This document shows positions 47,081 through 59,348 of a DNA stretch of 64,000 bases, piece after piece. The position numbers were made by a program, and so were the translations under genes. How positions within the stretch are numbered: position 1 is the first letter of the stretch; every line of letters starts with the position of its first letter. The notes under the pieces were generated by a model, which saw only the letters and a list, made by a program, of their open reading frames with translations, had not been told where the DNA came from and did no database searches. This DNA is from Gracilibacillus orientalis (GTDB lineage: Bacteria; Bacillota; Bacilli; Bacillales; Amphibacillaceae), in assembly GCF_900114645.1 (NCBI RefSeq), contig NZ_FOTR01000005.1, positions 186,001 through 250,000 on the forward strand, read 5' to 3'.

Positions 47081-48268
47081 ATGAAATATGGTTTTTCAGA
47101 ACGGGTAAAATATATGAAATCATCAGCAGTACGAGATATTTTAAAAATAATCAATCAAGGTAATATTATCTCTTTTGCTGGGGGATTGCCGGAAGAAGAT
47201 TTATTTCCAGTAGAGGCTATTGATAATGCTTTCCATAGGGCGATTACGACGAATAAAAAAGCACTGCAGTACGGAGAAACAGAAGGAGTACCTCAGCTAC
47301 GGGAATTATTAGCTGAGCGTATGAAACAAAAAGGCTTACACCGCTCCGCTGATAATATTTTGATTACTTCAGGAAGTCAGCAGGCGATCGATCTTTTCTC
47401 GCGAGTAATGTTCAATAAGGGTGATGTTATCTTAACAGAAACCCCAACATATTTAGCAGCATTACAAGTATTTGAATCGTATGAAACAAATATAGTCGCA
47501 GTTGATTCCGATGATGATGGTATGGTTTTAGCTGATTTAGAAGAGAAAATTGTACAACATAAGCCCAAATGTATCTATGTAGTACCAACCTATTCCAATC
47601 CAACCGGAAAGGTATGGTCGTTAGAAAGAAGACAAAAATTACTAGAACTGGCAAACAAATATCATGTTGTTATTTTTGAAGATGATCCTTATGGAGAATT
47701 ACAATTTGATGAAAATGAAGCACCACCATCCATTGCGTCATTAGATGAAAATGAAATTGTATTATACACAAGCACCTTTTCTAAAACGGTTGTGCCTGCT
47801 GTTCGTATTGGTTGGATTGTTGGTCCACACCAAATTATTCGTATTATGGCGCAAGCTAAGCAGGCAACTGATCTTCATACTAATTCTATTAGTCAGCATG
47901 CATTGGTGCATTTATTACAAGACTTTAATATTGATGAGCACATTCAAACGATCAGAAAAACATATTATGAAAGAATGCTTGTGATGAAGCGATTATTAGA
48001 GACAGTTGATATTGAAGGATTGGAGTATATAGTACCAAAAGGTGGTATGTTCTTCTGGGTAATGTTGCCGAAACAAATTAACACAAAAGACTTATTAAAT
48101 GAAGCGGTAAAAGAAGGAGTGGCTTTTGTACCAGGAGAACCATTCTATGTATCTGACCCCGAACAGAACACACTACGCTTGAATTTTACCAACTCTGAAC
48201 CAGCACTAATTGAAGAAGGGATGAAACGTTTCGTGAAAGTACTAGAAGCTACCAACACCCTTGCTTAA
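47081..48268 (+). CDS. PLP-dependent aminotransferase (2-aminoadipate/aromatic type)
   Basis: Class I/II aminotransferase of 395 residues of the LysN/2-aminoadipate transaminase type, which often take aromatic or branched substrates. Visible: ISFAGGLPEEDLFP (30-43), LQYGETEGVPQLRELLA (about 61-77), ITSGSQQAIDLF, VPTYSNPTGKVWS (about 167-179), FEDDPYGEL and the PLP lysine in TSTFSKTVVPAVRIGW (about 227-242). C-terminal arginine in LRLNFTN. Stands alone behind the amino-acid-type importer; the substrate cannot be named. ATG 47081 after GAAAGAAGGG. Confidence 0.88.
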   Translation: MKYGFSERVKYMKSSAVRDILKIINQGNIISFAGGLPEEDLFPVEAIDNAFHRAITTNKKALQYGETEGVPQLRELLAERMKQKGLHRSADNILITSGSQQAIDLFSRVMFNKGDVILTETPTYLAALQVFESYETNIVAVDSDDDGMVLADLEEKIVQHKPKCIYVVPTYSNPTGKVWSLERRQKLLELANKYHVVIFEDDPYGELQFDENEAPPSIASLDENEIVLYTSTFSKTVVPAVRIGWIVGPHQIIRIMAQAKQATDLHTNSISQHALVHLLQDFNIDEHIQTIRKTYYERMLVMKRLLETVDIEGLEYIVPKGGMFFWVMLPKQINTKDLLNEAVKEGVAFVPGEPFYVSDPEQNTLRLNFTNSEPALIEEGMKRFVKVLEATNTLA

Positions 48269-48975: not shown

Positions 48976-49362
48976 TTAATCTTCGTCTACTGGGTATACG
49001 CCATTTTCATCATGTACCTCTTTACCAGATAGAGGTGGGTTGAATACACAAACCATGCGCATATCTGTTTTTGCACGAAGTAAATGTTCATCATGTTCGT
49101 CAAGTGCATATAGCGTATCTTTTGTGATTGGCCATACTTTATTATCACTTAATGTTACAACTTCACCTTCACCTTCAATACAGTATACAGATTCAAGATG
49201 ATTTTGGTACCAAATATGAGTTTCTGTACCTGCTTTAATAATGGTATCATTAACAGAATAGCCCATACCGTCTTTTTTCATAATCAGACGACGGCTAATC
49301 CAGTTACCTCCATCAACATCATAATCAGTTCCTAGTATGTCTTCTAGTTTTACTACTTTCAT
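48976..49362 (-). CDS. ectC: L-ectoine synthase
   Basis: Cyclises N-gamma-acetyl-diaminobutyrate to ectoine, the last biosynthetic step. Cupin-fold protein of 128 residues, the usual length. Motifs: [10 protein letters not shown] (18-27), [22 protein letters not shown] (about 46-67, in parts; iron ligands Glu57 region and His/Tyr), and the C-terminal [18 protein letters not shown] (about 105-122). Start set at ATG 49362 after AGGAGG; the longer frame to 49413 is not needed. A 138-bp gap with a small hairpin separates it from ectB. No hydroxylase gene ectD follows in this window. Confidence 0.95.
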
Positions 49363-49453
49363 AATTAAATTGCCTCCTGTATTGTCTGTTTTATTTGCAC
49401 TATAATAATGCATAAACTTCTATGGATTATAGTATAAGAAAAACGAAGACTTT

Positions 49454-49471
49454 CGCCAAAAGGATTTGGCG
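49454..49471 (-). promoter_or_regulatory. Hairpin in the ectB-ectC gap
   Basis: CGCCAAA-AGGA-TTTGGCG, a 7-bp stem, followed on the minus strand by TTCGTTTTTC and a TACTATAATCC that could be an internal -10 box. The 138-bp gap is the largest within the operon. May adjust ectC expression relative to ectB. Confidence 0.4.
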
Positions 49472-49500
49472 ATAAGTCAAGTTTTTGTGCAAAACGTACC

Positions 49501-50769
49501 TTAGTTAGTAACGGGGTTCTTAACTACATCTTTTACACTTTCTTCAATAATATCCAGACCTTTTTGTAACTCATCTTTAGGTATATTTAATGGTGGGAAT
49601 AGTTTGAATACTTCATCATTTGGTCCCGCAGTTTCCATAATTAAACCTAATTCAAAGCAACGAGCTGTTATTTTCTCAGAAATTCCTTCAACTTCTGAAG
49701 CAATACCAATCATAAATCCACGACCACGAACTTCCCCTTTAATTTCAGGATAGTCTGAAACAATTTTATCTAAGAAGTTGTAGATAATTTCAGATTTTTC
49801 GTGGATTTGTTTTTCAAATGACTCATCTTTCCAATAGTCAAGTGCAGCTGTCGCTGTTACGAAAGCATGGTTATTACCGCGGAAAGTACCATTGTGTTCA
49901 CCTGGCTTCCAAATATCTAACTCAGGCTTGATCAATGTTACGGCAAGTGGTAAACCATAACCACTTAATGATTTAGATAAGCAAACAATATCTGGTTTAA
50001 TACCAGCAGCTTCGAAACTGAAGAATGAGCCAGTACGACCGATACCTGCTTGCACATCATCAATAATTAAAAGAATGCCCCAACGACGGCAAATTTCCTC
50101 AATTTGTTTTAACCAATCAAAGCGAGCAGCGTTAATACCACCTTCACCTTGAACTGTTTCTACGATCATTGCTGCAGGAATCGCAACGCCACTACCGCTA
50201 TCTTCAAGGAATCTTTCTAAATATACAATTGTATCATGATCAACATAGTTGTCATAAGCCATTGTTACAGTGTTTTGTAGTGGAATACCAGCACCTTGAC
50301 GTTTCATAGAGTTACCTGTAACAGATAGGGAACCAATAGTCATACCATGGAAACCACCTGTAAAACTGATAATATCAGTACGACCTGTTACTTTACGAGC
50401 CAATTTTAAGGCACTTTCTACTGTATTTGTTCCTGTTGGTCCAGGGAACATTACTTTATAGTCAAGATCACGTGGTTTCAAGATTACGTCATCAAACTTC
50501 TCTAAAAATTCAGCTTTTGCTGTAGAAGCCATATCTAGAGAGTGCGTAATCCCATCACTTGTGATATATTCAATTAATTTTTCTTTCATATGATCATCAT
50601 TGTGTCCATAGTTAAGTGCACCTGCACCGGAGAAGAAATCTAAATATTCATTTCCATCCTCGTCCCACATTTTGTGCTTCTTCGCCTTAGTAAATACAGT
50701 TGGGAAGTTACGAATATAAGTACGCACAACAGATTCATGATGATTGATAGTATCAAGATTTTTACTCAT
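49501..50769 (-). CDS. ectB: Diaminobutyrate--2-oxoglutarate transaminase
   Basis: Class III PLP aminotransferase of 422 residues: aspartate semialdehyde plus glutamate gives L-2,4-diaminobutyrate, the first committed step to ectoine. Visible: [14 protein letters not shown] (45-58), [18 protein letters not shown] (136-153), [13 protein letters not shown] (235-247; Asp for the PLP ring) and the PLP lysine Lys266 in [14 protein letters not shown]. The reaction is reversible in principle, so it could also feed diaminobutyrate back to aspartate semialdehyde during ectoine breakdown. Start ATG 50769 after AGGAGG-like AGGAACT. Second gene of ectABC. Confidence 0.95.
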
Positions 50770-50855
50770 CTTTTAAGTTCCTCCTAGAAATGTATTATAT
50801 ATCGAATTTATTTTCGCACTTTCTTAGTTAGAAAATACGAAATATTACGACATTA

Positions 50856-51371
50856 TTATTTGTTAATAGGCCCGACAATAAACTTTAATTCCTCTTCGTG
50901 CTCATCACCAGGGAAAACATCCTCGGTAAAAAACTCGCTTGAAGTAATTTCTGTATTAAAGTCACGAGCTATTTTCTGGAATAGAGATTGCGATGCCTTG
51001 TTGTCTGGTGTAATAGTTGCTTCGACAAACTTGATGTTCTGACACGCCTCGCTTGTTAATAAGTAATGCAACATTTTGGATGCAATACCTTTACCTCGCT
51101 GTGATGTATCAACACCAACTTGCCAAACAAATACAGCATCTGGTTTGTTTGGAGGGATAAATGCGGTAATAAAGCCAACCACTTGGTTATTTTCTTTTGC
51201 TACGACACAAGTATCACTAAAATACTCACTCATTAAAAGGTATTGGTAGGGAGAGTTTGTGTCTAATGTTGATTTTGATACTAATTCCCACATAGATGCT
51301 CCATCATTCTTTGTTGGTTTGGAGAACACAACGTCTAGGGTTGGAGCTGGATTCTGTACGTTATTAATCAC
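50856..51371 (-). CDS. ectA: L-2,4-diaminobutyrate N-gamma-acetyltransferase
   Basis: GNAT-fold acetyltransferase of 171 residues; transfers acetyl from acetyl-CoA to the gamma-amino group of diaminobutyrate. Motifs: DGASMWELVSKS (17-28), YQYLLMSEYFSDTCVVA (about 38-54), acetyl-CoA loop VDTSQRGKGIASKML (about 90-104), FVEATITPDNKASQSLFQKIA (about 117-137, in parts). The start is GTG 51371, 7 nt after AAAGGAG. First gene of the operon; possible promoter TTGCGG-17-TATTAT about 75 bp upstream. Divergent from the catabolic regulator gene 830 bp away. Confidence 0.95.
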   Translation of the reverse strand: MINNVQNPAPTLDVVFSKPTKNDGASMWELVSKSTLDTNSPYQYLLMSEYFSDTCVVAKENNQVVGFITAFIPPNKPDAVFVWQVGVDTSQRGKGIASKMLHYLLTSEACQNIKFVEATITPDNKASQSLFQKIARDFNTEITSSEFFTEDVFPGDEHEEELKFIVGPINK

Positions 51372-52204
51372 AATTTACTCCTTTCTTATTGGGCAATCGT
51401 TTATTTACACAAATCGTTACATTAAACATAATAAAGGGACTTGCAGTATTCCGCAAATCGCTTATAGCTTGATTACACTTTATAAATCTTCTTTTATTAA
51501 CTTGAGCTTCATTCAATTGGAATAACTTTATAAATCCTCCAATATTGTCATTTATCCTTACAAATGAGCAAAATTTGATCGAATTATCAAAGTATTCAGC
51601 TTATTTATTCCCGTTTTTTTTCAAAACAATCATTATTTTTTAAATAAAAAGACAATATCTAAACACAAAGTTGCCTGTCCATTTGTAATATTTTACAATC
51701 AGACTATCGATAACAACGCTGGATCTTGCAACAAATATATGGCTTTTTAATCGTCTAAAAATATTGATTTCGGTTGTTTTCATTGGATTTTGCCATTACT
51801 GCTTTTTCTGGGTAGACTGTATTTTTATTTTTATCCAAAAACACAGGTTATAAATGTAGCTTCATATTCCTGAGGATAGTGAATGAAAAGGCATATTGTA
51901 TGGTGTTTGAGCGTAAAAATAATATAACAGATTATTTGCTTTTTTGTCTCTTTTGATTGAGAAATCATCATAACAAAAATCCTTTATATGTTGTTAAACT
52001 CGGTTTTCCCGAAGCTTTCGCTGGGAATAGTTAAAAAGGAGGACTAAGTTTCTGACTTCGTTTAACAGCTCGTCCTCGACAAAGTTTCTGTTATCGTAGA
52101 CCTTATCAAACTTATAAATTTTGATAAGGCAAAAATGTCTCTTTTTTTAAAAAGCACTTATGTTTATGTGATGATGGAATTTTGTAGCAAAATGAGGTGA
52201 GGGT
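51372..52204. other. Long intergenic region between ectABC and the catabolic cluster
   Basis: No credible gene in 830 bp. It must hold the osmotically controlled ectA promoter on the minus strand. From about 51993 the DNA is rich in possible stems: TTCCC-GA-AGC-TTTC-GCT-GGGAA (about 52007-52029), GGAGGAC against GTCCTC (about 52040 and 52073), GTTAAAC against GTTTAAC (about 51994 and 52067), and CCTTATCAAA...TTTGATAAGG (about 52103-52131) followed by a T run at 52140-52147. This could be a structured leader or terminator ahead of the PucR gene, or a decayed repeat. Confidence 0.4.
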
Positions 52205-53887
52205 ATGGTTTTAACGGTGAGTACTATAATGCAAATGCCGGTGATGAAAGTTTGTGAAGTAAAGACAGGAAAACAATTGCTAGAGCAAAAGCCGATTGAA
52301 TGGGTTTCTGTTATTGAGCTCCCTGTTGAAAACTTTGTCAGAAAGAATGAGTTTGTTTTAAGTACCGGTATAGGATGCGAAGATAATCCCAACTTATTAG
52401 AATCCTTTGTGCAAGATGTCATTCAATCAGGGGTATCTGTTTTAGGTTTTGCCACAGGACGATATATTTATAATATCCCTGATCGAATTTTGGAAAAGGC
52501 AAATCAAAATGATTTAATCATCATTGACATTCCTTGGGAAGTTCGTTTTACGGATATTTGGCAATCTGTGATGGATAAAATTACAGAAGTAAAACACAAA
52601 GAACGTCAAAAGGTAGAAGATGCCAGACAAGAATTAATTAATTGTGTTCTAAAAGATAAAGGATTAGAAGAGATTGCACACACATTATATAAGCATATTA
52701 AAATTCCTGTTGCCATCACTGATTCTGAAAAAAGGTGGAGGGCATTAAAGTTTTTTAATAAAGATATTTTAGAAAATTATAGTCTCGAAGTCCAAGAAGG
52801 TCATTTACATCCGATACCACTATCTGATATAAAATTTCAAGAACATCCATTGTATTATCATATGAAAGAATACAAATTTTATAAAGATCGTTTTTTTCAG
52901 CTGCAAATTCTCAACAATCACAAGGTACAAGGGTATATTGTATTTCAGCCGAGCGATAATAAAGAGCTGACTTGGTTTGTGATGAATGTGTTAGAGCATG
53001 CATTGACAGCCTGTGCGTTATACTTTGTGAAAGAGAATGCCATTGAGTTAACCGAGATACGATTAAAGGATAATTTTGTTTTAAATTTAGCTAAAAATAA
53101 ATTGAAAATAGATCATCAACTATTAACAAAAGCACATTTATTAAGATATGATCTAAATCTTCCTTATGTTTGTATTGTCGGAGATATTAGAAATAAAGAT
53201 CTAGGATCAGATAAGCATGATACTTTAGATAACCCTTATCATTCATCATTAAGAAGCTTTAATTATTATATCCAGAAGGAAATCACCTACGCAGGTCGAC
53301 TATTTGAGCGAAAAACGATGACTACCTTTGAAAAGGGGGAAGTGATTCTTTATTTGCAAGTAGAGGATCCTTCTTATCATGATGTAGCAAATCAATTTTT
53401 AGATACGATTGAACGACGGTTAAGCCAATTGCTTTCAGATATTGATATCTCTTGGGGAATTGCACTTCAAAAAGAAAGTACGTATCCATTTTATGAAAGC
53501 TATGAAAAGGCCAAAACGGCTCTAGAAATTGGACTGCAGCATGATGGTCCTGGGAATAGAACATTTTATAGTGATACAAGAATTAATCGGCTGTTAATGG
53601 CAATATCTCAAGAAGAAAATATTCATGAGATTGTAAAAGATACATTGAGACCATTGTTAGAATACGATAAAAAGAGACAGACAGACCTCATTTTTACTTT
53701 TAAGACGTACAACAAATACAAAGGAAATGTTAGTCAAACAGCAAGAGAATTAAATTTACATCGCCAATCGTTATTGCATCGCTTGAGAAAAATAGAGTCT
53801 CTGACGCATTTATCCTTAATTGAGGCTGATGATTCTTTTTTATTAGATTTGAGTGTCCGGTTATGGATGCTGAATAAAATAAAATAA
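52205..53887 (+). CDS. PucR-family transcriptional regulator
   Basis: Regulator of 560 residues. An N-terminal PucR domain (about 5-125: STIMQMPVMKVCEVKTGKQL, ENFVRKNEFVLSTGIG, VLGFATGRYIYNIPD), a middle GAF-like region (about 160-300), and a C-terminal helix-turn-helix (about 490-555: TFKTYNKYKGNVSQTARELN, LHRQSLLHRLRKIE) of the PucR/CdaR type. PucR proteins commonly activate purine or amino-acid-derivative catabolism in response to a small ligand. Here the four genes behind it form a probable ectoine-degradation operon, so its ligand may be ectoine or a breakdown product. Start ATG 52205 after TGAGGTGAGGG. It has its own terminator, and candidate operators lie between it and the hydrolase gene. 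Confidence 0.83.
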   Translation: MVLTVSTIMQMPVMKVCEVKTGKQLLEQKPIEWVSVIELPVENFVRKNEFVLSTGIGCEDNPNLLESFVQDVIQSGVSVLGFATGRYIYNIPDRILEKANQNDLIIIDIPWEVRFTDIWQSVMDKITEVKHKERQKVEDARQELINCVLKDKGLEEIAHTLYKHIKIPVAITDSEKRWRALKFFNKDILENYSLEVQEGHLHPIPLSDIKFQEHPLYYHMKEYKFYKDRFFQLQILNNHKVQGYIVFQPSDNKELTWFVMNVLEHALTACALYFVKENAIELTEIRLKDNFVLNLAKNKLKIDHQLLTKAHLLRYDLNLPYVCIVGDIRNKDLGSDKHDTLDNPYHSSLRSFNYYIQKEITYAGRLFERKTMTTFEKGEVILYLQVEDPSYHDVANQFLDTIERRLSQLLSDIDISWGIALQKESTYPFYESYEKAKTALEIGLQHDGPGNRTFYSDTRINRLLMAISQEENIHEIVKDTLRPLLEYDKKRQTDLIFTFKTYNKYKGNVSQTARELNLHRQSLLHRLRKIESLTHLSLIEADDSFLLDLSVRLWMLNKIK

Positions 53888-53896
53888 TAGGGATGA

Positions 53897-53928
53897 CGTC
53901 TTGTTGTATAGCAGGGCGTTTTTTTATA
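53897..53928 (+). terminator. Terminator after the PucR gene
   Basis: ACGTCTTG and CAGGGCGT form a short stem with G-U pairs, followed by TTTTTTT. Confidence 0.65.
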
Positions 53929-53988
53929 GGAAAAGAAAGTGAAGAACATAGATAAGCGCAAATAATGCGATCACTTAGCCAAATTTTT

Positions 53989-54054
53989 ATTAAGTACCAA
54001 AATATAAAAGCAAAAAATCAAATTAGTACTTAAAGCCTGATTAAGTACCAAAAT
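53989..54054 (+). promoter_or_regulatory. Three-box operator array before the hydrolase gene
   Basis: ATTAAGTACCAAAAT occurs identically at 53989-54003 and 54040-54054 (51 bp apart). Between them, AATTAGTACTTAA at about 54021-54033 is an inverted, slightly altered copy (TTAAGTACTAATT when reversed). The next gene starts 290 bp further on. These are candidate sites for the PucR-type regulator encoded directly upstream. Confidence 0.6.
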
Positions 54055-54343
54055 GAAATTCAATATCTTAAATATGGAACTGAAAGAACTAAATGATAAG
54101 CGGCGATTCGTGTCACCCACTTGCTTCTAATTTGGAACTTTTTAAAAAGCATGAGTCAAATAAGGTGAGTGCAAAAGTAGCCTGTATTCCTGAATATATG
54201 GGCGTTTGTGCCTTAATTCATGTTGTATGACAGAAAACCAAAAACTTCATACAATCTGAACATTACATTTTAACCAGCTGTTTAATAAGATGAAAGTAAG
54301 AAATAACACTTTATAAAAAATTTTAGGGGGGAGGAGGGATACG

Positions 54344-55552
54344 ATGTTAGCCTTTGATATTTTAGAATATCAAAAACGTTTAACGAAGACAAAACAACAG
54401 ATGGCTGAAAGCGGGATTGAAGTGTTACTTGTAACAGACCCAGCTAATATGAATTATATATCAGGCTATGATGCTTGGTCATTCTATGTTCACCAAATGT
54501 TAATTATCATCATTGATGAACCTCAGCCAATTTGGATTGGTCGTTATCAAGATGCAAATGGCGCGAAAATTACCACATGGATTTACAACGAAAATATTAT
54601 TCCTTTCCCAGATTATTATGTGCAATCATCGATTTACCACCCAATGGATTTTATAGCAGAAATTTTAAAACAGATAGGGCAAGGAAATAGAAACATTGGT
54701 GTTGAGATGGATAATTATTATTTCACTGCCAAAGCTTATGAAAGGTTAAAGTATGGACTTCCCAATGCTACATTTAAAAATGCGGATTTATTAGTGAACT
54801 ATGTAAGGATTATCAAATCAGAGCAAGAGATTGAATATATGAAGCAGGCAGCAGAAATTGCTGATCAAGCGATGTATAAAGCAGTAGAAAGCGTACGGGT
54901 AGGGAATAGAGAGTGTGATACAGCAGCAGCAATATATCATCAAATGATTTCTGGTACGGATGATTATGGAGGTGATTATCCAGCTATTGTTCCGTTGCTT
55001 CTGTCTGGAGATAATACTGGTGCACCACATCTAACTTGGTCGGAGAGAAAATATAAAGAAGGAGAATCTGTTGTTATTGAATTAGCAGGCTGTTACAAGA
55101 GGTATCATGTACCAGTAGCTCGAACAGTATCGATAGGTAAACCTTCTATACAGCTTGAGAAAATTGCTCCGATTGTCGTTGAAGGTTTGAATGCCGTTTT
55201 AGATGCGGTAAAGCCTGGAGTCACTTGTGGAGAACTGGAAAGGTATTGGTATAACTGTCTCAAAAAATATGGAATTGAAAAAGAGGCAAGACTAGGATAT
55301 TCCGTAGGTTTAGGTTACCCGCCGGATTGGGGAGAGCATACAGCAAGCATTCGAGCAGAGGATTCAACCGTTTTACAACCAAACATGACTTTCCACCTTA
55401 TTCCGGCCTTATGGTTTGACGATTATGGAATTGAGATCAGTGAATCATTTCGAGTAACAAAAAATGGTGGTGAAACGTTCACCAAAATCCCAAGAGATTT
55501 AATTGTGCAAGATCCCTTTCCGTTTCAAGAAAAAGGCGGAATAATCAGCTAG
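54344..55552 (+). CDS. doeA: Probable ectoine hydrolase, M24 fold (DoeA/EutD-like)
   Basis: Protein of 402 residues with a creatinase N-domain (1-150) and pita-bread M24 domain (155-390). The text VTDPANMNYISGYDAWSFYVHQ (30-51, given in parts: NMNYISGYDAWSFYVHQ) and GDYPAIVPLL (210-219), HLTW and YPPDWGEHTASIR (325-337) follow ectoine hydrolase, which opens the ectoine ring to N-acetyl-diaminobutyrate. Metal ligands of M24 peptidases are lost: Glu246 replaces the first Asp, Pro257 the second, and the GHGIG histidine becomes GYSVG (318-322). That argues against an aminopeptidase and agrees with metal-free EutD. The divergent ectABC operon supports the call. ATG 54344 after GGGGGGAGGAGGG. Confidence 0.8.
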   Translation: MLAFDILEYQKRLTKTKQQMAESGIEVLLVTDPANMNYISGYDAWSFYVHQMLIIIIDEPQPIWIGRYQDANGAKITTWIYNENIIPFPDYYVQSSIYHPMDFIAEILKQIGQGNRNIGVEMDNYYFTAKAYERLKYGLPNATFKNADLLVNYVRIIKSEQEIEYMKQAAEIADQAMYKAVESVRVGNRECDTAAAIYHQMISGTDDYGGDYPAIVPLLLSGDNTGAPHLTWSERKYKEGESVVIELAGCYKRYHVPVARTVSIGKPSIQLEKIAPIVVEGLNAVLDAVKPGVTCGELERYWYNCLKKYGIEKEARLGYSVGLGYPPDWGEHTASIRAEDSTVLQPNMTFHLIPALWFDDYGIEISESFRVTKNGGETFTKIPRDLIVQDPFPFQEKGGIIS

Positions 55553-55595
55553 TTTTCCATATGATTAGATAGATTATAGATGAGGAGGGCCTAGT

Positions 55596-56795
55596 ATGAG
55601 AGATGTAAAAATGAGTACAAAAGCAGTATGGGCAGGAGAAAAAGATCAATTAGCTTTCGGAGCCACTCAAGTTCCAGTTGTGCATAGTGTATCTTTTGGT
55701 TATGACGATATGGATGAATGGTATGAAGTCGCTATCGGAAATAAAGAAGGTCATATCTACGGTCGTAATACCAATCCAACCGTTGAAGCATTTGAAGAAA
55801 AAATAAGAATTTTAGAAGGAGCAGAAGCTGCTACGAGCTTTTCGACTGGCATGGCAGCCATTAGTAATACACTCGGAACTCTATTATTTCCAGGGGATCG
55901 AATAGTTTCCATAAAAGACACTTATGGCGGAACCAATAAAATATTTACCGAATTTTTGCCAAAGCAAAAAATAGACGTAGTTTTATGCGACACAGGAGAT
56001 CATGCAGCGATTGAAAAAGAGGTAGCAAAAGGCTGTAAAGTTCTTTATTTAGAAAGTCCCACTAATCCAACAGTGAAAATAACGGATATTGAACGAATGG
56101 CGAAGGTTGGAAAAAAAGCTGGAGCTATAGTCATTGTTGATAACACATTTGCTACTCCGATAAACCAAAACCCACTTGAATTGGGAGCAGATTTAGTGAT
56201 TCATAGTGCTACTAAATTTTTAGGCGGTCATGCAGATGCATTAGGCGGCTCAGTATGTGGATCTAAAAAATTAGTAGAAAGTATTTATCATTATAGAGAA
56301 ATCAATGGAGCAACACTTGATCCAATGTCAGCCTATTTATTGCTAAGAGGCATGAAAACGCTTCAGTTGAGAATTGAAAAGCAAAGTGAGAATGCAATGG
56401 TAGTTGCTCGCTATTTGCAATCTGTTGATGCCGTTGAATCGGTATTTTACCCAGGATTAGAGGACCATCCAGGCCATGATATTGCTAAGAAACAAATGAA
56501 CGGGTTTGGCAGCATGTTAAGTTTTTCGGTAAAGGGTGGGGTGGATACACTCAGACATTTACTTCCAAAGCTAAAATATGTGAACCGTGCAGCGCATCTT
56601 GGCTCTGTTGAAACTATTGTGGGCCCCTCACGCACAACAAGTCACGTAGAATGTACACCAGAAGAAAGAGCTGCAATGGGGATACCGGAAGGGTTAATTC
56701 GATATTCAGCAGGACTGGAAGATAAGGATGACTTAATTCATGATTTAGAGCAAGCCTTTCAATCCTTGCCAGAAAGTTTATTTGTAAACAAGTAA
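55596..56795 (+). CDS. Cys/Met-metabolism PLP enzyme (cystathionine gamma-synthase family)
   Basis: PLP enzyme of 399 residues from the family of cystathionine gamma-synthase, O-acetylhomoserine sulfhydrylase and methionine gamma-lyase. YGRNTNPT at 55-62, TGMAAI near 86, DTYGGTN (108-114; active-site Tyr110), ESPTNPT near 153, and the PLP lysine Lys207 in HSATKFLGGHADALGG. These enzymes remove or replace a group on the gamma-carbon of an amino acid. In this cluster the natural candidates are diaminobutyrate or its N-gamma-acetyl form, an amide analogue of O-acetylhomoserine. A role in sulfur metabolism is the alternative. ATG 55596 after GAGGAGGG, 43 bp after the hydrolase stop. Confidence 0.85.
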   Translation: MRDVKMSTKAVWAGEKDQLAFGATQVPVVHSVSFGYDDMDEWYEVAIGNKEGHIYGRNTNPTVEAFEEKIRILEGAEAATSFSTGMAAISNTLGTLLFPGDRIVSIKDTYGGTNKIFTEFLPKQKIDVVLCDTGDHAAIEKEVAKGCKVLYLESPTNPTVKITDIERMAKVGKKAGAIVIVDNTFATPINQNPLELGADLVIHSATKFLGGHADALGGSVCGSKKLVESIYHYREINGATLDPMSAYLLLRGMKTLQLRIEKQSENAMVVARYLQSVDAVESVFYPGLEDHPGHDIAKKQMNGFGSMLSFSVKGGVDTLRHLLPKLKYVNRAAHLGSVETIVGPSRTTSHVECTPEERAAMGIPEGLIRYSAGLEDKDDLIHDLEQAFQSLPESLFVNK

Positions 56796-56840
56796 AGCAA
56801 CCACCGATTTTTCTTTAAAAAAACAATGGAGGTGATGAGA

Positions 56841-57896
56841 TTGACTATGAAGGTCGCTTTTATTGGGTTTGGCGGTGTTGGGCAGGCTTTGGCAGAGATT
56901 TTTTTGAAACAACAAAAGGGCGAAAAGCCATCGTTTGGTTTCGAGCCCGAGGTTGTCGCTGTATCCGATATTATGAAAGGATCTGTGTATCATCCAAATG
57001 GATTAAACATTGAAGAGTTGTTATCTGCCGTTAGAGATTCTGGGAGTTTAGATGCTTATCCAGATCAAACAGGACTAATTAGAGGCTGGGATAGCATGGA
57101 TACGATCAAGGATACGAATGCAGATATGATTGTTGAGGTAACGTTCACAGATGTGAAAACAGGTCAACCAGCCATTGACCATTGCCAAACAGCTTTTGAA
57201 CATAATAAAAGTGTAGTAACGACTAATAAAGGTCCTGTTGCCTTAGCTTATGATGAGCTATCAGCACTCGCTGAAAAAAACGACGTGTTCTGGGGATTTG
57301 AAGGGACGGTAATGAGCGGAACACCAGCTCTCAGATTGCCCGTTATGACGCTAGCAGGTAATGAAATAACGGAAATTAAAGGGATTCTAAATGGAACGAC
57401 TAATTATATGATTACTGAAATGGAAAAAGGTAAGACATACAAGGAAGCCTTAGAAAAAGCACAAAGCCTAGGGTTTGCAGAAGCGGATCCAGTTAGTGAC
57501 GTAGAAGGTTATGATGCGAGATATAAGACAGCGATTTTAGCGAACTATTTAATGGGTAAAAAAATAGCATCAGAAGATATTTATTGTAAGGGAATTAGCG
57601 ATTTAACATTAGAGATGGTGAAAGAAGCATTAGATGAAAATCAAAAATGGCGTCTGCTCTCGCGTTTAACCAAAAGGGAAGATGGTTCTGTTGAAGCTTC
57701 GGTTAAGCCAGAGCTGGTAGATGGTAACGATCCATTAGCTGGAGTTAATGGTCCAACAAATGCGATTGTCTATGAATGTGACTTATCCGGTCCAATTATG
57801 TTAACAGGTGCAGGGGCAGGGTTAATCGAAACAGGTTATTCACTTTTTATTGATATCATTCACTACCATAGACAAAATGCCCTAACCAAACTTTAA
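56841..57896 (+). CDS. Homoserine dehydrogenase, short form without ACT domain
   Basis: Oxidoreductase of 351 residues. NAD(P)-binding GFGGVGQAL (9-17), then the homoserine dehydrogenase signature GILNGTTNYMITEM (about 186-199) and FAEADPVSDVEGYDARYKTAILA (about 212-234, in parts; catalytic Lys in YKTAIL). Interconverts aspartate semialdehyde and homoserine. Threonine feedback needs a C-terminal ACT domain, which is absent, consistent with a catabolic role. The start is uncertain: TTG 56841 lies 8 nt after GGAGG; ATG 56847 is 14 nt after it. Tightly placed between the PLP-enzyme and dehydrogenase genes. Confidence 0.85.
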   Translation: MTMKVAFIGFGGVGQALAEIFLKQQKGEKPSFGFEPEVVAVSDIMKGSVYHPNGLNIEELLSAVRDSGSLDAYPDQTGLIRGWDSMDTIKDTNADMIVEVTFTDVKTGQPAIDHCQTAFEHNKSVVTTNKGPVALAYDELSALAEKNDVFWGFEGTVMSGTPALRLPVMTLAGNEITEIKGILNGTTNYMITEMEKGKTYKEALEKAQSLGFAEADPVSDVEGYDARYKTAILANYLMGKKIASEDIYCKGISDLTLEMVKEALDENQKWRLLSRLTKREDGSVEASVKPELVDGNDPLAGVNGPTNAIVYECDLSGPIMLTGAGAGLIETGYSLFIDIIHYHRQNALTKL

Positions 57897-57911
57897 TAGG
57901 GGGTGAATTCC

Positions 57912-59348
57912 ATGCAACTACAAGTAAAACAAGAAAAAATGTTGATTGCAGGACAATGGATAGCTGCTGAGCAAACATTTGATGTATTTGATCCGCAAGA
58001 TAATCGATTAATTGCCAAAGTACCATTAGCTACAGAAAATGATATGCTAATGGCCATTGAAAAAGCAGATGAGGCTTATCTAAACAACAAATATTGGCCA
58101 ACTTATGCAAGAATGGCTGTGCTTCAACGAGTAGCCTCTTATATAGAAGAGAATAAAGAGCGTTATGCAGAAACGATAGCATTAGAAGGAAGTAAAACAA
58201 TTCAAGAGGCTCGTGGAGAGGTGAAACGAGCGATACAAACGATTAAAATCAGCGCAGAAGAAGCGCGAAGGATAAATGGAGAAACGATTAATTTTGATCA
58301 AAGTGAAAGTGGAGAAAATAGGGTGGGCTATTATTATCGCTTTCCAGTAGGTGTGATTGGAGCTATTACCCCGTTTAATGATCCTTTAAATTTAGTAGCT
58401 CACAAGGTTGGTCCAGCGATTGCCTCTGGAAATGCGGTTATTGTCAAACCAGCATCTGATACGCCGTTGAGTGCATTGCTTTTGGCAGAAGCATTCACAA
58501 AATCTGGTTTACCTGCAGGCATGCTATCCGTTGTGACCGGATCAGGTCGAGATGTAGGCGACGTGCTCGTCACACACCCTTCCATCACAATGATTACATT
58601 TACGGGAGGGGTGGATGTTGGGAAGAAAATAGCGCATAAAGCTGGAATTAAGAAGGTAGGAATGGAGCTCGGTTCCAACTCTCCGGTTATCGTGTTAAAA
58701 GATGCAGATGTTGAAAAAGCAGTGGCGTCTTGTGTTTCAGGTGCTTTTACAGTTGCCGGCCAAAATTGTATTGGTGTCCAGCGAGTTTATGTAGAAAAGG
58801 AAGTATATGATCAATTCTTAGAGTTATATAAACACAGGACTTCTGAACTGCATTTGGGAGATAAAATGGATCCATTAACAGACATTGGCCCAATGATTAA
58901 TGAACGGGAAGCAAAAAGAGTTGAAGCATGGGTAAATCAAGCAGTAGTAGAAGGGGCAAAAATTCAAATTGGTGGAAAAAAAGAAAGAGCCTTTTATTAT
59001 CCTACTATTCTAACAGATGTCCCTAGTAATGCTGTGATTGCTCAAGAAGAAATATTTGGTCCTGTCGTACTTGTCTATTCAGTAGAGGATGTGCATCAAG
59101 CGATTGATCAGTCAAACGCTGTTGATTATGGGCTGCAAGCAGGGATATTTACCAAAGATTTGGAAAATGCATTTTTAACGATACAGGAGTTAGAAGTTGG
59201 CGGCATCATGGTGAATGATAGTAGTGATTATCGTATTGATGCTATGCCTTTTGGGGGAGTGAAACAATCGGGGTTAGGAAGAGAAGGTATCAAGTCCTCG
59301 ATTGAAGCCATGACAGAGCTAAAGGTAGTGAGCTTTAAACTAAACTAA
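57912..59348 (+). CDS. Aldehyde dehydrogenase (probable aspartate-semialdehyde to aspartate step)
   Basis: NAD(P)-dependent aldehyde dehydrogenase of 478 residues. Catalytic Cys286 (AGQNCIGVQR), general base Glu252 (MELGSNSP), oxyanion Asn156 (TPFNDPLN), cofactor loop FTGGVDVGKKI near 230-240, and the C-terminal PFGGVKQSGLGREG. It resembles the lactaldehyde/phosphonoacetaldehyde/succinate-semialdehyde group. In doe/eut clusters an enzyme of this superfamily (DoeC/Ssd) oxidises aspartate semialdehyde to aspartate; the same role is inferred here. ATG 57912, 8 nt after TAGGGGG; an in-frame GTG at 57903 overlaps that site. Last gene of the cluster, 15 bp after the previous stop. Confidence 0.87.
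   Translation: MQLQVKQEKMLIAGQWIAAEQTFDVFDPQDNRLIAKVPLATENDMLMAIEKADEAYLNNKYWPTYARMAVLQRVASYIEENKERYAETIALEGSKTIQEARGEVKRAIQTIKISAEEARRINGETINFDQSESGENRVGYYYRFPVGVIGAITPFNDPLNLVAHKVGPAIASGNAVIVKPASDTPLSALLLAEAFTKSGLPAGMLSVVTGSGRDVGDVLVTHPSITMITFTGGVDVGKKIAHKAGIKKVGMELGSNSPVIVLKDADVEKAVASCVSGAFTVAGQNCIGVQRVYVEKEVYDQFLELYKHRTSELHLGDKMDPLTDIGPMINEREAKRVEAWVNQAVVEGAKIQIGGKKERAFYYPTILTDVPSNAVIAQEEIFGPVVLVYSVEDVHQAIDQSNAVDYGLQAGIFTKDLENAFLTIQELEVGGIMVNDSSDYRIDAMPFGGVKQSGLGREGIKSSIEAMTELKVVSFKLN

Follow-up and report, generated by a model that had tools for sequence, protein, structure and literature searches.

The question raised by this locus is how Gracilibacillus orientalis might take ectoine to aspartate with a gene cluster that encodes neither the deacetylase nor the transaminase of the described pathways. 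The window, which here means the whole stretch of 64,000 nucleotides that was analyzed (positions 186,001 to 250,000 of contig NZ_FOTR01000005.1), contains the ectoine biosynthetic genes ectABC on the minus strand. Divergent from these is a run of plus-strand genes for a PucR-family regulator, a protein of the M24 fold, a pyridoxal phosphate (PLP) enzyme of the cystathionine gamma-synthase (CGS) family, a homoserine dehydrogenase (HSD) without an ACT domain, and an aldehyde dehydrogenase (ALDH). As a salt protectant ectoine is widespread, and it is also made industrially; degrading it has been taken to need a diaminobutyrate transaminase. The canonical systems of Halomonas and Ruegeria (DoeA/EutD, DoeB/EutE, DoeD/Atf and DoeC/Ssd) likewise place a DoeA-type hydrolase first and an ALDH last, with aspartate as the expected end. 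The window cluster differs from them in having no EutE and no class-III transaminase, in the addition of CGS and HSD, and in carrying a PucR-family regulator rather than the MocR-type EnuR/EhuR.

The cluster is real and conserved and very probably serves ectoine catabolism, and there is good reason to think that CGS and HSD replace the transaminase. It is rather likely that homoserine is the intermediate, and a complete PucR-controlled route with this replacement seems to us likely to a similar degree. In such a route M24 would open ectoine to N-alpha-acetyl-diaminobutyrate, and a deacetylase (an M20 amidohydrolase in many relatives, encoded elsewhere in this genome) would release L-2,4-diaminobutyrate. 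The CGS-family enzyme would then take off the gamma-amino group and add water, giving homoserine and NH3; the ACT-less HSD would convert homoserine to aspartate semialdehyde, and the ALDH would convert the latter to aspartate. Together CGS and HSD would form a two-enzyme bypass of the transaminase step that needs no amino acceptor and stands under PucR control. Every substrate and product named here, homoserine included, the role of ectoine as inducer and the binding of PucR at an upstream element are predicted from sequence. The analysis supports what a first-pass annotation of this DNA had suggested, namely a cluster for ectoine catabolism that lacks both EutE and a DoeD-type transaminase and leads to aspartate by way of aspartate semialdehyde and probably homoserine. 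If the proposal is correct, ectoine is degraded through homoserine in many Bacillales, with no need for a transaminase or for 2-oxoglutarate, and a function can be given to a gene family that so far has no definite reaction. The genes of the cluster could then also be deleted in Bacillaceae that produce ectoine, to prevent its loss.

The genes, strands and coordinates given in the first-pass annotation were borne out by matches to family models (Table 1). Gaps of only 43, 30 and 6 bases between the M24, CGS, HSD and ALDH genes give them the look of a single operon; pucR precedes M24 at a distance of 456 bases. The M24 protein is 48-49% identical to three plasmid-encoded proteins annotated as DoeA; with two Xaa-Pro peptidases encoded in the same genome the identity is 24-25%. 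In an alignment with these two peptidases, the five positions D, D, H, E and E, which we take to be the metal ligands of the M24 metallopeptidases, read E, P, Y, I and S in the window protein (an E follows the last of them). The annotated DoeA proteins also depart from the peptidases at the ligand positions, and the first three replacements are common to them and the window protein. By sequence, the best solved structure is Halomonas DoeA (6TWK, 377 bits), the best peptidase reaching 126 bits. A peptidase function of M24, which had been named as one case fatal to the original proposal, is rejected because the metal-ligand motifs are lost. By these comparisons M24 is of the DoeA/EutD type, at the level of the subfamily only, as the equivalog cutoff of TIGR02993 is unreached.

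M24 homologues (E<=1e-60) were found in 66 of 150 genomes, that of G. orientalis included, and the remaining 65 supplied the 71 M24 loci that were read. Linkage was counted within 9 kb of M24, with identity thresholds (CGS at least 60%, aminotransferase at least 40%, HSD at least 45%, M20 at least 40%) that were chosen after the first tables. CGS (E<=1e-140) is present in 42 of the 150 genomes, again counting G. orientalis, and all 42 also have M24. The linkage of the two genes is more than chance: 41 of the 71 loci have CGS, 21 have a class-III aminotransferase on the same strand, and none has both. HSD occurs in 28 of the loci, always with CGS (28 of 28) and never with an aminotransferase. 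The exclusion of aminotransferases from CGS loci (0 of 41, Fisher p=2.6e-11) leaves out ect genes on the opposite strand and ignores phylogeny, as do two variants of the count. When the adjacent biosynthetic ectB of L036, L037 and L039 is counted as an aminotransferase, 3 of the 41 CGS loci have one (p=0.001); when genes of the gamma-aminobutyrate (GABA) type are also left out, 12 transaminase loci (AT1- or EctB-like) remain, and the comparison is 0/41 on the CGS side against 12/30 (p=6.8e-6). In an order-level set, made up of the 40 most M24-similar of about 110 new matches, CGS was present in 40/40 loci, HSD with ALDH in 34/40, and an aminotransferase above threshold in 0/40. Aminotransferases of less than 40% identity near CGS were set aside as counter-examples, because those of L120 and L121 lie above the ornithine-transaminase cutoff and that of L069 above the ArgD cutoff, and because that of L250, while above no cutoff, is most like glutamate-1-semialdehyde aminomutase.

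EutB (420 bits, cutoff 413), EutC-like genes and an M20 amidohydrolase are present in some sister clusters; the order M24-EutC-CGS-M20-HSD-ALDH is seen in relatives, and in the eight relatives' loci that have M24-EutC the next gene is CGS in seven and M20 in one. Clusters of this kind have been listed before. A paper of April 2026 (PMC13188858) presents, in its available text, Bacillales pucR-eutBCD-atf together with abgB-thrA-adh as putative clusters for ectoine catabolism that have no eutE and may be regulated by PucR. There thrA is described by its general reaction, the reduction of aspartate semialdehyde, with no role in the route stated in that text, and the words 'cystathionine', 'Klebsiella' and 'Priestia' have no occurrences in the main text. 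As far as that text describes them, those clusters have the same genes in the same order as the relatives studied here, with PucR and without EutE, and the window has pucR, eutD, the thrA-like HSD and the ALDH in corresponding order. They contain eutB, eutC and abgB, whereas a model search of the cluster genes at 52205-59348 found none of these three, which are present in many relatives. Judging from gene order in the available text, the published 'atf' is probably this CGS, and if our proposal is true that label needs correcting for Bacillales. Because such clusters are already listed, the window cluster counts as a variant of a known pathway. The view that it was undescribed falls to that extent; what stands of it is that the main text of the paper has no 'cystathionine' and the available text no role for HSD in the route. 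No homoserine route for ectoine was found among the best literature matches, which come mostly from open-access literature.

The CGS of the window belongs to PF01053 and NF006097 and not to an aminotransferase family. NF006097 (PRK08249, 'cystathionine gamma-synthase family protein'), whose curated cutoff it exceeds, gives no definite reaction by its name, and its members occur outside ectoine clusters too. Residues Y55, R57, Y110, D182, S204, K207 and R369 are kept in 54/54 aligned CGS rows, outgroup included; their roles (PLP lysine, active-site and carboxylate-binding residues) are presumably those of their counterparts in methionine gamma-lyase. R346 was dropped as a marker residue, not being specific. 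The conservation of the PLP- and carboxylate-binding residues makes an enzyme of gamma-elimination or gamma-replacement plausible, and among solved structures those nearest in sequence are methionine gamma-lyases, which form 2-oxo acids. A part in the hydroxyectoine step (EutB/EutC) is unlikely, as EutB/EutC are found in 7/41 CGS loci and in 4/12 loci with AT1- or EctB-like transaminases. We propose that CGS would act as an L-2,4-diaminobutyrate gamma-lyase giving homoserine, a new activity. The PLP enzyme canavanine gamma-lyase converts canavanine to homoserine and hydroxyguanidine, according to the available text of its description (PMC10018355). It is likened to CGS by the proposed reaction and not by sequence, and it differs in its substrate, canavanine, and its leaving group, hydroxyguanidine. 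In Pseudomonas canavaninivorans, canavanine-derived homoserine is reportedly taken towards aspartate by HSD and ALDH steps, in work of 2022 by Hauth et al. In that pathway HSD and ALDH are reportedly encoded beside the lyase, and this is also so in the window and in 28/41 CGS loci.

The HSD of the window lacks not only the ACT domain but also the C-terminal extension of the other HSD of the genome, to which it is 30% identical; the motifs TNK and EADP..DV.GYDARYK are kept. For the ALDH, none of 25 models listed was above its cutoff. The same ALDH subfamily is found in 28/28 HSD loci and in six transaminase-type loci without HSD (L059, L061, L078, L086, L087 and L106). In the ALDH tree a branch with full support separates the 29 ALDHs of CGS+HSD loci, that of the window among them, and the six from transaminase loci from three gab-type succinate semialdehyde dehydrogenases (SSADHs). 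If aspartate semialdehyde is the product in the transaminase clusters, as it is in the known pathway, CGS and HSD should reach the same aldehyde. A shared last step fits a predicted course from diaminobutyrate through homoserine to aspartate semialdehyde.

Unrelated bacteria also have CGS in their ectoine gene clusters. A tblastn search with CGS of 72,556 plasmid records gave 34 records at 60-80% identity; among the 33 matches listed, 5 are from Priestia and 28 from Klebsiella or Pluralibacter. The plasmid of Priestia megaterium NBRC 15308 reads pucR-eutB-pdxS-M24-cyclodeaminase-CGS-M20-HSD-ALDH-proP. In all three enterobacterial plasmids opened, of the 28 (L253, L255 and L256), a MocR-like regulator, doeA and doeB are followed directly by CGS. 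In L253 the regulator matches the EhuR model NF052286 (569, cutoff 480) and CGS matches NF006097 (651, cutoff 600). The genes ehuB-ehuC are divergent on these plasmids, and the longest stretch adds ehuD, ehuA, a PLP enzyme and eutC (eutC in L253). Five plasmids with doeB served as controls: SSADH and aminotransferase genes come next in Leisingera, with an AsnC gene between, and in Paracoccus, and after ehuBCDA in Chelatococcus; in Sinorhizobium and Rhizobium the 6 kb read contain neither. In the order doeA-doeB-CGS, CGS thus follows the deacetylase gene, in a place that ssd and atf often occupy. On genome contigs the best 80 of at least 596 CGS loci comprise 29 at 55% identity or more and 51 with more distant CGS-family genes. 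M24 (at least 42% identity) flanks 15 of the 29 close loci, short contigs included, and these 15, within the best 80, include two from Acidimicrobiales and one from a SUP05 gammaproteobacterium; in the flanks of the 51 more distant genes, M24 or HSD was found in none. Further neighbors in this material, which speak for homoserine and aspartate in the route, are an aspartate ammonia-lyase gene (TIGR00839, 722, cutoff 681) after M20-CGS-HSD-ALDH in L123, and a threonine synthase gene (TIGR00260, 226, cutoff 167) after CGS in L126. The three opened Klebsiella and Pluralibacter plasmids, with their ectoine uptake and breakdown genes, have IncFIB replicons.

Several observations weigh against the proposed route. 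The window has no deacetylase gene linked to the cluster, nor was a linked transporter gene recognized there; 13/41 CGS loci lack HSD, and no HSD was found in the three enterobacterial stretches read. Among M24 loci sampled at the phylum level CGS is present in 0/19, with other gene sets around M24, and among the best 80 CGS loci the close subfamily also occurs without M24 in other phyla. A Paenibacillus locus (L125:8980-15656) has CGS-HSD-ALDH with an S-methylmethionine-permease-like gene (below cutoff) and a homocysteine S-methyltransferase gene (above cutoff), and a GntR-like gene upstream on the opposite strand; M24 is absent from the stretch. Judging by such a locus, the CGS unit may act on other gamma-substituted amino acids, such as S-methylmethionine. 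The mutual exclusion of CGS and aminotransferases is itself qualified in two ways. AT2 is carried by 14 of the 21 transaminase loci (by nine as the only type), and an example of it scores above the GABA-transaminase cutoff and stands beside an SSADH gene, so that the AT2 loci may be separate gab operons. The M24 tree has about four switches between CGS and transaminase, giving two independent pairs on well-supported branches and five on all branches; with so few pairs a phylogeny-aware test cannot reach significance. The exclusion pattern is suggestive, not proof.

Of the alternatives, the one that survives best is that CGS is a plain gamma-eliminating lyase that turns diaminobutyrate into 2-oxobutyrate and two NH3, with HSD and ALDH doing something else, for example removing excess homoserine or aspartate semialdehyde. 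Its closest structures, the methionine gamma-lyases, would suit such an enzyme, and so would the CGS loci and enterobacterial stretches without HSD. We nevertheless regard it as unlikely, in view of the confinement of HSD to CGS loci and of an ALDH subfamily common to the transaminase clusters, which points to aspartate semialdehyde as the shared intermediate.

Diaminobutyrate as the substrate of CGS presupposes a deacetylase, and here the earlier interpretation has to be divided. It had two unusual enzymes standing in for both the deacetylase and the transaminase, which agrees with our results for the transaminase and not for the deacetylase: M20 is encoded between CGS and HSD in 21/28 CGS+HSD loci and is present in 29/41 CGS loci, and doeB precedes CGS on the enterobacterial plasmids. 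The M20 of the L040 cluster reaches 229 bits with the DoeB2 model NF038260 (cutoff 550). M20 is missing in 7/28 CGS+HSD loci (the window genus and a few others) and in 13/34 of the order-level set, and some transaminase loci (e.g. L061, L078) likewise have no M20 nearby, so that CGS and the loss of M20 are not coupled. A deacetylase and transaminase of the doe/eut type elsewhere in the genome, the other case named at the outset as adverse to the proposal, did not appear. EutE (TIGR02994) had no match at E<=0.01 across the 4.6 Mb genome, and the four class-III aminotransferases found there are EctB, one above the ArgD cutoff and two above HemL cutoffs, with no DoeD-type enzyme among them. EctB could in principle be reversed to serve as a catabolic transaminase, and the gene at 47081-48268, which reads as a class-I aminotransferase with no NCBIfam match at E<=1e-100, is a possible further transaminase. 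The best match of the genome to the cluster M20 has an E value of 3.6e-70, the level of unrelated M20s, compared with 4.5e-108 or better for cluster copies. As a DoeB2, the M20 at L262 is a weak candidate, with 357 bits of the 550 needed and higher scores for general amidohydrolase and carboxypeptidase models; the DoeB2 model also matches 10/14 control genomes. Deacetylation looks like a separate step whose enzyme is unlinked in the window genome, and replacement of the deacetylase as well by CGS and HSD is the weaker reading.

One form of that weaker reading would have CGS act on gamma-acetyl-diaminobutyrate, which has a free alpha-amine, and release acetamide, so that deacetylase and transaminase are both unneeded. 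The lack of EutE in the genome, the poor level of its best M20 match and the loci without M20 would all be accounted for, and yet we find this improbable. An annotated doeB stands directly before CGS on the enterobacterial plasmids, most CGS loci have M20 and its absence is not tied to CGS, and another M20 amidohydrolase of the genome, such as that at L262, could do the work. EutD is reported to yield the alpha-acetyl isomer, in which the amine is blocked. The Halomonas enzyme gave the alpha and gamma isomers 2:1, according to the available text of PMC5924519.

Marginally less probable still is a side branch from ectoine carbon to homoserine and methionine, in which HSD reduces, CGS makes cystathionine or homocysteine, and aspartate semialdehyde is supplied by EctB in reverse or by another transaminase. 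HSD is biosynthetic in most bacteria, EctB is encoded next door in the window genus, and the available text of PMC13188858 has thrA reducing aspartate semialdehyde. Against this, one ALDH subfamily is coupled to HSD in 28/28 loci, and CGS and ectB occur together only where ectABC happens to adjoin. That the cluster degrades some other compound, such as a peptide, canavanine or S-methylmethionine, and lies beside ectABC by accident would suit an ectABC adjacency seen mostly in one genus and the M24-less CGS-HSD-ALDH run beside S-methylmethionine-type genes, but is most improbable given a DoeA-type M24 that has lost the peptidase motifs, EutB/EutC in sister clusters, and enterobacterial plasmids on which doeA-doeB-CGS adjoins ehu genes and a gene for an EhuR-type regulator.

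The route through homoserine would be controlled by PucR, the probable regulator of the cluster judging from gene neighborhoods: a PucR homologue (at least 30% identity) lies within 9 kb of M24 in 39/71 of the relatives' loci and in 36/40 order-level loci. A conserved element upstream of M24 (Table 1) is a candidate PucR operator. For the pattern TTCATACA-N8-10-ATTA, 33 of the 44 matches in 4.27 Mb (both strands, 111 loci) fall in the 71 M24 upstream regions of 260 bases. The motif exceeds the shuffled 99% level in 63/72 upstream regions and not in nine, these being the same sequences on which it was trained. In ten CGS loci outside the motif set the element was found at -91 to -97 in six and was absent in L063, L091, L102 and L105. 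Of the four transaminase loci with pucR within 9 kb, three carry the left half of the element at -93 to -111; it was found in 0/14 gab-type loci. The genome has one perfect site only, and looser matches number 104 versus 112 in the control, which is no enrichment. A shared operator was rejected as a lead to the missing deacetylase, in view of the single perfect site and of a one-mismatch site that adjoins small ORFs unlike pathway genes. Taken together, a hydrolysing diaminobutyrate gamma-lyase, a transaminase-free use of ectoine brought about by several swaps in Bacillota and one in an enterobacterial EhuR-doeAB-type operon, and PucR acting at a new element make up a combination for which we see the balance as tipping just in favor. 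A tnrA-type gene lies within 9 kb of M24 in 14/71 loci; the L040 copy is near pucR and above the NF053740 cutoff. These neighbors give hints of nitrogen control of the cluster.

Table 1. Positions and family-model matches of the cluster genes, the upstream element and the neighboring ectoine biosynthesis genes, counted from the first base of the window.
Feature	Positions	Strand	Match or remark
pucR, PucR-family regulator	52205-53887	+	PF07905 + PF13556 (GGDEF_2 + HTH_30)
Conserved upstream element AAACTTCATACAATCTGAACATTACATT, candidate operator	54242-54269	+	28 bases, about 75-100 before M24 start
M24, DoeA/EutD-type ectoine hydrolase (predicted)	54344-55552	+	best model DoeA TIGR02993, 500 bits; cutoff 613 missed
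CGS, cystathionine gamma-synthase-family PLP enzyme	55596-56795	+	NF006097, 734 (733.5) bits, cutoff 600
HSD, ACT-less homoserine dehydrogenase	56826-57896	+	NF004912, 416 bits, cutoff 373
ALDH, aldehyde dehydrogenase	57903-59348	+	PF00171, 537 bits
ectC, ectoine synthase	48976-49413	-	NF009806, 195 bits, cutoff 128; neighbor, outside the catabolic unit
ectB, diaminobutyrate--2-oxoglutarate transaminase (biosynthesis)	49501-50769	-	TIGR02407, 674 bits, cutoff 552
ectA, diaminobutyrate acetyltransferase	50856-51371	-	TIGR02406, 197 bits, cutoff 121

The back-to-back arrangement with ectABC, to which the first-pass annotation had drawn attention, is real in the window and mostly specific to the genus. 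It is found in the window and in three of the four further species of the genus that carry the cluster (L036, L037 and L039, not L038), and L122 is the sole case seen outside it. In a sample of the genus ectC is present in 17/17 genomes and the CGS of the cluster in 5/17. The match of ectC to NF009806 starts at residue 18, and the true start of the gene is probably about 17 codons inside the ORF. A gene similar to the class-I-aminotransferase-like one of the window is found near ectC in L036, L037 and L039.

Second copies of M24 stand beside EutB and EutC, without CGS or transaminase, in L077, L082, L084 and L089, and form a starred clade of four of their own. An archaeal M24 homologue of 56% identity is encoded on a Haladaptatus plasmid (L254) near genes for a D-2-hydroxyacid dehydrogenase, an amidohydrolase and a threonine ammonia-lyase, a layout that resembles the HPR-M20-EutB arrangement of some Bacillota loci.

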